This document shows, piece after piece, positions 11,769 through 17,802 of a DNA stretch of 64,000 bases. This DNA comes from an uncultured Microcaldota archaeon (GTDB taxonomy: Archaea > Micrarchaeota > Micrarchaeia > Norongarragalinales > CAINOH01). The first letter of the stretch is position 1. Each line of letters opens with the position of its first letter. The position numbers and the translations under genes are program-made. Under the pieces are notes generated by a model. It ran no database searches. It was not told the origin of the DNA and worked only from the letters and a program-made list of their open reading frames with translations. Location of the stretch: contig CAINOH010000009.1 of assembly GCA_903851445.1 (NCBI GenBank), positions 387,784 through 451,783 on the forward strand, in the 5' to 3' direction.

Positions 11769-12644
11769 ATGAAACGCTCCATCCAAGACCTTTTGGAATA
11801 TGGCTTCCTCGTGCTTGACAAGCCAGCAGGCCCCTCGTCGCACGAGGCCTCTGCATACGCTGCAAAAATCCTCGACGTGAAGAAGGCCGGGCACACGGGC
11901 ACGCTTGACCCGAACGTGTCAGGAGTCCTTGTCATCCTCCTCAACTCGTCCTGCAAGGTCGCATCCTACCTTTCCGAGACCGACAAGTCGTACGCCTGCG
12001 TGATGGAAACCGGGCGGCCGCACACACGCAAAGAAGTCGAATCTGCTTTTGAAAATTTCCGCGGAAAAATCTACCAGACGCCCCCGCTTGCAAGCGCGGT
12101 TGCAAAGAAGCTCCGCATCCGCGAAATCTACTCGCTGAGAATACTCGAGGTCGATGGCAGGCGCATCCTCTTTGAGTGCGACTGCGAGGCAGGCACTTAC
12201 ATACGCAAGCTGTGCGTTGATGCGGGACGAGTGCTTGGCAGCGGCGGCCAGATGCTTGAACTGCGCCGCACGAAAGCAATGGGGATAACCGAAAGCAAGG
12301 CAGTCACGCTCCAGCAGCTCTCCGATTACTACTGGCTTTACAAGGAAAAAGGAGACGAGTCTGCCCTGCGCAAGATTATCCGGCCGATTGAGGAGCTTGC
12401 CACTTTGAAGAAAATAGTCGTCAAGGATTCCTACATTCCCGCGATAGTGCGTGGCATTGATGTCAAGAAGTCCGACGCTTCCTCAACCGACTCCTCGATA
12501 GCAAAGGATGACTGGATAGGGCTATACAACAAGGACGGCGCGCTCCTGGCAGTTGCGAAAGCCCTTTTCGACTTCAAGCAAATTAAGGACGCGGAAGAGA
12601 ACGCAGTGCTTTTTGACTTGGAGCGCGTCATTCGCACTTGCTAA
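11769..12644 (+). CDS. cbf5: tRNA/rRNA pseudouridine synthase Cbf5 (TruB family)
   Basis: 291 residues. The catalytic Asp is in GHTGTLDPNVSGVL (D47), after LDKPAGPSSHEASA. CDCEAGTYIRKLCVD and the RTKAMG segment are typical of Cbf5/TruB, and a PUA domain occupies about residues 205-291. In archaea Cbf5 is the catalytic subunit of H/ACA ribonucleoproteins and also makes Psi55 in tRNA. It closes the conserved cmk-eL14-cbf5 run and is followed by two genes of opposite strand that break the superoperon. Confidence 0.94.
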   Translation: MKRSIQDLLEYGFLVLDKPAGPSSHEASAYAAKILDVKKAGHTGTLDPNVSGVLVILLNSSCKVASYLSETDKSYACVMETGRPHTRKEVESAFENFRGKIYQTPPLASAVAKKLRIREIYSLRILEVDGRRILFECDCEAGTYIRKLCVDAGRVLGSGGQMLELRRTKAMGITESKAVTLQQLSDYYWLYKEKGDESALRKIIRPIEELATLKKIVVKDSYIPAIVRGIDVKKSDASSTDSSIAKDDWIGLYNKDGALLAVAKALFDFKQIKDAEENAVLFDLERVIRTC

Positions 12645-17202: not shown

Positions 17203-17422
17203 GCAGGGGTGGCAGAGCCTGGTCAAAAAAACCATTTGCCCGAAAACCGGTGAACGGACTCATCCTCAACCGCGCATTGCGCGGCACAAGATGGCCGCAA
17301 GGTTTTTGGGTATTGTTTTGGCCAAATGCGCAAGATTGAGGTTCTTGTCTCTTAGGAGTGCCTGGGTTCAAAGGACTCGAGGGCGTTCCGCCCTCCTGTC
17401 CGGACAAATCCCAGCCCCTGCA
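17203..17422 (+). tRNA. tRNA-Leu(GAG) with introns in the D loop and the T loop
   Basis: Acceptor GCAGGGG (17203-17209) pairs CCCCTGC (17415-17421), discriminator A. Anticodon stem CAAGA/TCTTG encloses TTGAGGT, anticodon GAG, with no intron there. D stem GCA (17212-17214) and TGC (17327-17329) are separated by a ~99-nt intron (about 17227-17325): TGGTC pairs GGCCA and AAAAC pairs GTTTT around it. The T stem CTGGG/CCCAG encloses TTCAAA, then a 36-nt intron (about 17373-17408) folding as GGAC/GTCC plus GAGGGCG/CGCCCTC, then T. Splicing gives an 85-nt tRNA with D loop ending GGTCAAA and T loop TTCAAAT. Exact junctions are ambiguous by one or two A residues. Confidence 0.88.
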
Positions 17423-17442: not shown

Positions 17443-17802
17443 ATGATAAGCGGCCCTGAGAACCCGGTTGTGCAGCAACTCGTGGTTGCATTCAGAAAAC
17501 AGTTCAAGTCCTCCAAGAAAATGGTCTGGGAGCGCATTGCCGAGCTTTTGCTCAAGCCCTCGCGCAAGAAGCAGGGGGTCAACCTGACCAAGCTCTCCAA
17601 GTACGTGGCTGAAGGCGACATCGTAGCCATTCCCGCAAAGGTGCTCTCGCTTGGCACGCTTTCAAAGAAAGTGACCGTCTACGCGCTCTCCTACTCAACT
17701 GCCGCAAGGGCAAAGATTGAGAAGGCAGGAGGAAAGGCACTGCCCCTCATGGACTTGATAACGTCCAAGGTGGAGCAATCCAAGATTAAGATTCTCATTT
17801 GA
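17443..17802 (+). CDS. Large ribosomal subunit protein eL18
   Basis: 119 residues, normal for archaeal eL18. Key segments are KMVWERIAELLLKPSRKKQGVNLTKLSKY, GDIVAIPAKVLSLGTLSKKVTV and the ending SKIKILI. GGTGAT lies 6 bases before the ATG. It starts 20 bases after the tRNA-Leu and begins the eL18-uL13-uS9-Rpo10 operon; the tRNA is embedded in this transcript or marks its start. Confidence 0.94.
   Translation: MISGPENPVVQQLVVAFRKQFKSSKKMVWERIAELLLKPSRKKQGVNLTKLSKYVAEGDIVAIPAKVLSLGTLSKKVTVYALSYSTAARAKIEKAGGKALPLMDLITSKVEQSKIKILI

Follow-up and report, generated by a model that had tools for sequence, protein, structure and literature searches.

A tRNA-Leu(GAG) gene with introns in both the D and T loops in a micrarchaeon, and an order-conserved D-loop intron complementary to its own anticodon arm

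Introduction

Archaeal tRNA genes with several introns have been tabulated for ARMAN-1 and ARMAN-2 (PMC4033280) and reported in Asgard archaea (PMC11291895). The closest described counterparts of the gene presented here are the multi-intron tRNAs of ARMAN-1/2, which are Micrarchaeota, and of the Thermoproteales. They share with it non-canonical introns in the D, T and anticodon arms, several of which may occur in one tRNA, and they also share a tRNA-splicing endonuclease of broad specificity, of either the epsilon2 or the (alpha-beta)2 type (PMC4033280, PMC6379350). Epsilon2 endonucleases are known to cut relaxed bulge–helix–bulge (BHB) motifs (PMC6379350; PMC12397907). Our gene differs from these systems in combining a D-loop with a T-loop intron while having none at position 37/38, and in carrying, within the D-loop intron, an order-conserved RNA fold that matches the tRNA's own anticodon arm.

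This last property leads to a second group of known systems, i.e. RNAs that guide tRNA modification. In Haloferax and other Euryarchaeota the intron of tRNA-Trp contains a box C/D guide aimed at the anticodon arm of tRNA-Trp itself, where it directs 2'-O-methylation of C34 and U39 (PMC11408192); in our case, the intron resides in the D loop, has an H/ACA-like layout and has pseudouridine 38 as its predicted product. The H/ACA and truncated H/ACA-like guides of Pyrococcus and Pyrobaculum similarly use two strands of 5–6 nt that leave a gap of 2 nt, and they have a k-turn 10 layers from the pocket (PMC4652768), to which a k-turn-like element of the D-loop intron may correspond. The D-loop intron would be a circularly permuted version, with the k-turn-like stem at the intron ends, a capped lower stem and no ACA/ANA box. 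Finally, pseudouridine 35 of Sulfolobus tRNA-Tyr is made by an H/ACA guide that replaces a deficient stand-alone enzyme (PMC4652768, PMC7991803). In the micrarchaeon the missing enzyme would be TruA rather than Pus7. To our knowledge, the Sulfolobus guide does not come from an intron of tRNA-Tyr itself. The literature that we searched, which was not complete, describes a tRNA intron with a box C/D guide (PMC11408192) but none with an H/ACA-like one.

Results

A tRNA-Leu(GAG) gene interrupted in the D and T loops

The window analysed here, a stretch of 64,000 nt, lies on a 452-kb contig of an assembly of 1.09 Mb that is 81% complete. On its forward strand, positions 17203–17422 hold a tRNA-Leu(GAG) gene, which starts with GCAGGGG and continues to CCCCTGCA, with a D-loop intron of 99 nt and a T-loop intron of 36 nt. 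The acceptor stem (GCAGGGG/CCCCTGC) and the D, anticodon, variable and T stems are complete only when about 99 and 36 nt are taken out; ARAGORN identifies the resulting 85-mer as tRNA-Leu(gag) but makes no call on the unspliced sequence or on forms with only the D-loop or only the T-loop intron removed. These results bear out the initial annotation in its essentials, namely a tRNA-Leu(GAG) whose D and T loops, but not its anticodon loop, hold BHB-type introns, the need to remove both inserts, and the prediction that standard finders would miss the gene: in the window, both ARAGORN and Rfam at its gathering score overlook the native gene, and Rfam at a relaxed threshold gives no meaningful match at this locus.

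Intron limits were set by the archaeal BHB rules, i.e. a central helix H of 4 bp, bulges of 3 nt and a cut between the second and third bulge nucleotide. This places the D-loop intron at 17227–17325 (between tRNA positions 21 and 22) and the T-loop intron at 17372–17407 (58/59). Each intron has the 4-bp helix, and each of its two splice sites a 3-nt bulge: for the D-loop intron, H is GGUC (17221–17224) paired with GGCC (17320–17323), followed by AAA bulges at 17225–17227 and 17324–17326 (GGUC-AAA ... GGCC-AAA), and for the T-loop intron GUUC (17366–17369) paired with GGAC (17402–17405), again followed by AAA (GUUC-AAA ... GGAC-AAA). Since the bulges consist of AAA, the register of the cuts is ambiguous by 1–2 nt (A), and the junctions first proposed, 17226/17326 and 17372/17409, fall within this ambiguity. 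The GGAC/GTCC pair originally read as the BHB flank of the T-loop intron turned out not to be H; it is the intron-internal helix h' (17373–17376 with 17398–17401), which is extended by GAGGGCG/CGCCCUC. Both introns have the relaxed BHB form, with the intron-internal helix present and a full outer helix not adjacent to the bulge. The three exons comprise the acceptor 5' strand and the 5' part of the D arm (GCAGGGGTGGCAGAGCCTGGTCAA, 17203–17226); the 3' part of the D arm, the anticodon arm (GAG at 17338–17340, U38 at 17342), the variable arm and the 5' part of the T arm (17326–17371); and the 3' strands of the T arm and acceptor with discriminator A (17408–17422).

The exon contexts of the two introns are nearly identical, G(G/U)UC-AA^A-U. 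The heptamer G(G/U)UCAA^A that is thus nearly shared, at 17221–17227 and 17366–17372, suggests that introns were gained at a common target sequence.

Compared with dinucleotide shuffles, both introns fold into far more stable structures (z = -4.48 for the D-loop and -4.34 for the T-loop intron). Judged from these folds, from intron-free orthologues at the same locus and from the conserved order rpoD – tRNA-Leu(GAG) – L18e, the interruptions are not a matter of chance.

Splicing endonuclease and other tRNA genes of the genome

The genome encodes a single tRNA-splicing endonuclease of 388 aa, which matches ARMAN-2 EndA (PDB 4FZ2) over its whole length (phmmer, E=3.5e-121) and, as this full-length match indicates, is a three-unit fusion as in the epsilon2 type. 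Aligned to 4FZ2, it conserves a Y236/H251/K282-type catalytic triad as well as Lys161 of the ARMAN-2-specific loop (ASL). By homology, it is an epsilon2 endonuclease of the ARMAN-2 type and thus of the broad-specificity kind. Such an enzyme would cleave both ends of each intron, after which a ligase would join the exons to the mature tRNA of 85 nt.

We therefore regard the locus as very probably a functional tRNA-Leu(GAG) gene, the two BHB introns of which, at non-canonical sites, would be removed by splicing. The opposite reading, in which the gene is a pseudogene in decay that received two insertions at random and its codons are read by another tRNA, could invoke the incompleteness of the assembly; it is nevertheless highly improbable, as every stem is intact once the introns are removed, the sequence is typical of the class, the insertions sit at BHB sites, and searches of the genome yielded neither another Leu(GAG) nor a Leu(UAG). 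The suggestion that this may be the sole GAG-decoding leucine tRNA has likewise held in the 81%-complete assembly: a second intact Leu(GAG) gene, which had been named as evidence against the call, was searched for there and not found. The genome shows three other leucine tRNAs, intact or intron-bearing (CAA, CAG, UAA), as well as a degenerate sequence that resembles tRNA-Leu. The latter (GGATAGCAAAGCCGGGTCAA... at G000:C20:55972, in loci L247/L250; G000 being the organism's own genome) has no matching acceptor 3' strand, lies about 440 nt downstream of tRNA-Leu(CAG) and may be either a tRNA remnant or an integration scar.

Further interrupted tRNA genes were seen in the same genome. Two tRNA-Ala genes, both on the reverse strand (L035, L038), have T-loop introns; one of them adjoins the 16S rRNA gene, and Rfam scores both weakly. 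A tRNA-Gly(GCC) gene (L036, reverse strand of C9, about 116,050–116,230) has an apparent D-loop intron of about 90 nt, and Gly-CCC (L037) is likewise interrupted near the D arm.

Orthologues in the order and class

Ribosomal protein L18e (17443–17802, forward strand; NCBIfam NF003079, E=5e-33) served as the anchor for tRNA-Leu loci in 40 relatives, in 29 genomes of the order and in the class. Throughout the class (Ca. Micrarchaeota), the position between rpoD and L18e holds an orthologous tRNA-Leu(GAG), intact or differently interrupted, and Leu(GAG) is found at the same place in other archaea too (Methanothrix and others). Intact genes between rpoD and L18e were found at L050, L059, L060, L061 and L071, and intact Leu(GAG) genes of the order also in genomes G019 (L230) and G011 (L235). 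T-loop introns are present at L044, L046, L048, L055, L062, L063, L064, L067, L068 and L072, D-loop introns at L047, L049, L052, L056, L058, L069 and L070, and both together in the window and at L044, L053, L057 and L066. In the class outside the order, T-loop and anticodon-loop introns are frequent while the D loop is hardly ever interrupted, the exceptions being short inserts at L045 and L054.

The initial view that introns at these positions are known from Thermoproteales and rare elsewhere calls for correction, because T-loop and anticodon-loop introns of tRNA-Leu(GAG) are common in the Micrarchaeota class, and because D-loop introns recur in the order and multi-intron tRNAs occur in ARMAN-1/2 and Asgard archaea (PMC4033280, PMC11291895). 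As an intron architecture, the gene is of a known sort, i.e. an ARMAN-type multi-intron tRNA cut by an epsilon2 EndA (PMC4033280), which is common in the class; what appears to be new here is the order-conserved, self-complementary D-loop intron.

A conserved fold in the D-loop intron

Nine D-loop introns from four families (window, L049, L052, L053, L056, L057, L058, L069, L070) share a common architecture although their sequences are almost unalignable, a structured element that the initial annotation had not described. Stems and pairs were counted in hand-set columns (Python). In all nine, a basal helix is followed by a bulge with UGA at its end, then a stem, the first strand of an internal loop, L (YCUCA, in which CUCA is invariant), a hairpin, the second strand of the internal loop, R, which reads ACARR or differs slightly from it, and the other strand of the stem. 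Every position of the hairpin shows three to four standard pair types across the nine introns and those of the stem two to four, and these repeated two-sided changes indicate that the fold is under selection.

In the window intron, the 5' strand of the basal helix h' spans 17228–17248, with AAAAC (17228–17232) pairing with 17315–17319 and CCCGAAAACC (17239–17248) with 17301–17310. A k-turn-like element, recognized in the nine-intron comparison, consists of the bulge GGU (17249–17251), GA (17252–17253) and A at position 3b (17254), opposite C-AA at 17298–17300. Next come the 5' strand of the GA stem (CGG ACT CAT, 17255–17263), which pairs with ATGGCCG (17291–17297), then L (CCUCA, 17264–17268), the apical hairpin d (CCGCGC-AUU-GCGCGG, 17270–17284), which covaries across species, and R (ACAAG, 17286–17290).

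Several members of the order and all sampled outgroups are without this element, and shorter D-loop introns that lack it occur at L047 and L239, so splicing does not need it.

A different recurrent element was seen in the fetched loci, consisting of a pyrimidine/purine hairpin (a T-rich strand with one C and an A-rich strand with one G), a spacer of 5–16 nt that often contains a small palindrome, and the purine strand once more, as in TTTTTCTTTC-loop-GAAAGAAAAA-spacer-AAAAAGAAA. There are 26 distinct copies, many of which lie within tRNA introns or closely follow tRNA genes (L044, L050, L053, L054, L055, L058, L062, L066, L067, L069, L070, L072, L203, L204, L214, L232 and others); the window holds none.

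Complementarity to the host anticodon arm

Strand L is complementary to positions 33–37 (UGAGG, 17337–17341) and R to positions 40–44 (17344–17348) of the same tRNA, such that exactly nucleotides 38 and 39 are left unpaired. Across the nine introns, 86 of 90 cells of this intron–tRNA pairing are filled. For R, 41 of 45 cells pair at a gap of two nucleotides, as against 14–23 of 45 at gaps of 0, 1, 3, 4 or 5. The introns also pair better with their own tRNAs than they do when tRNAs are reassigned among them (P=0.017, for nine related introns). The window has an exceptional anticodon stem, with UCUUG for UCCUG, and its R reads ACAAG for ACAG, a change by which a possible L–R pairing is lost and the pairing to the tRNA kept.

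When the putative guide in the window was scanned against the 36 called tRNAs of the genome plus tRNA-Leu(GAG) itself, position 38 of Leu(GAG) was the best of 2,422 positions, with a score of 10 against 7.5 for the next. A loose guide descriptor found some match in 1258 of 1500 shuffled introns and was not used as evidence; matches in single introns therefore prove nothing. A tighter descriptor tied to position 38 matches eight of the nine real introns and 12% of shuffles, with the caveat that it was devised after the data had been seen and that the introns are related. Because the introns are homologous, nine matches are not nine independent events.

TruA and the H/ACA machinery

TruA makes pseudouridine 38/39 (38–40) in tRNA. 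Its absence had been predicted before the search, and indeed PF01416 was detected in 0 of 29 genomes of the order and 0 of 88 sampled genomes of the class, 54 of which are at least 90% complete, as compared with 12 of 14 control genomes; TIGR00071 gave only two sub-threshold fragments in eight genomes. With no TruA detected in 88 genomes, pseudouridine 38–40 of their tRNAs would be either absent or made in another way. Nop10 is present in 25 of 29 genomes of the order, and Cbf5, the RNA-guided pseudouridine synthase and catalytic subunit of H/ACA complexes, in 9 of 11 examined; the genome under study has both, with a Cbf5 gene in the window (11769–12644, forward strand; NCBIfam NF003280, E=4e-97).

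Discussion

As our leading hypothesis, we tentatively propose that the D-loop intron, which is no filler but carries an ancient folded RNA, is a circularly permuted H/ACA-like guide that would pseudouridylate U38 of its own host tRNA and so replace the missing TruA. The stem with the k-turn-like element would then correspond to the upper stem and the hairpin to a capped lower stem, with the order of strands and target matching an H/ACA pocket in which U38 is the target and N39 lies beside it; circularization of the intron after splicing would close the k-turn end. As in H/ACA RNAs, the two strands pair on both sides of an unpaired U-N, the target nucleotide at L049 being C38. In productive archaeal H/ACA guides, the second G-A pair lies 10 layers from the pocket and the 3' guide measures 5–6 nt (PMC4652768), a geometry that was consulted only after the H/ACA strand order had been noticed. 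On the strand that follows R, layer 10 is an A in eight of nine introns, L052 being without it, and layers 9–10 are GA in four of nine and AA or UA in another four, with AA in the window. An H/ACA RNA should have an open lower stem and then an ACA/ANA box at 14–16 nt from the pocket. In the D-loop introns no such box was found, with no ANA conserved, and the lower stem is capped. As a defining feature of H/ACA RNAs is thus missing, we do not class the intron as one but only as possibly working like one. At L049 the core is kept, yet position 38 is C; U38 is also kept in relatives without the D-loop intron, and G011 has A38. Furthermore, the absence of TruA is class-wide and uncorrelated with the intron, and thus permits the intron but does not explain it. 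Given the missing box, the capped stem, C38 at L049, the deviation at L052, the class-wide absence of TruA and the limits of the descriptors, the guide function appears to us quite possible, but short of probable.

Other readings of the same element have to be weighed against it. The fold could be a passive structure that presents the BHB motif to the endonuclease, with the complementarity to the anticodon arm reflecting coincidence or shared ancestry. That the loose descriptor matches most shuffled introns, that the matches come from homologous introns and that the element is missing in several order members and all sampled outgroups are all consistent with this; yet YCUCA is retained while the neighbouring stems change completely, the D-loop introns of L047 and L239 are short and do without the element, and a mere scaffold does not account for the sharp preference of R for a gap of two nucleotides or for the own tRNA over reassigned ones, so that we consider a passive role conceivable but on balance doubtful. 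Pairing in cis could alternatively mask the anticodon, or keep the precursor competent for splicing but not chargeable, with no modification involved. CUCA is the exact complement of U33-G34-A35-G36, and R, by its resemblance to the 5' strand of the anticodon stem, could displace that strand, but the strict two-nucleotide gap, the k-turn-like element and the fixed spacing of 10 layers would be left unexplained; generic pairing between intron and anticodon is also disfavoured by two other D-loop introns of tRNA-Leu in the order, L233 (CAG) and L239 (CAG), in which inspection by eye found no such complementarity. Overall, such masking seems unlikely. Very unlikely, in our view, is a box C/D guide for 2'-O-methylation like the Haloferax tRNA-Trp intron, despite this precedent (PMC11408192), an RUGA-type motif, k-turn-like geometry and the same target region. 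A guide split into two strands on either side of a hairpin has the H/ACA layout, and the antisense amounts to only 5–6 nt per strand. C/D guides usually have antisense of 10 or more nt. As the window intron has no D or D' box (CUGA), we rejected this assignment.

Even without a guide function, a well-supported tRNA gene has been missed by ARAGORN and Rfam, and tRNA inventories of the class that were obtained with such tools are incomplete. If, however, the H/ACA-like guide reading is true, a tRNA intron would carry the instruction for pseudouridylation of its own tRNA and thus be the H/ACA counterpart of the C/D guide intron in Haloferax tRNA-Trp. It would also provide a reason why a costly and oddly placed intron persists across families, and a route to pseudouridine in the anticodon arm in archaea that apparently live without TruA.
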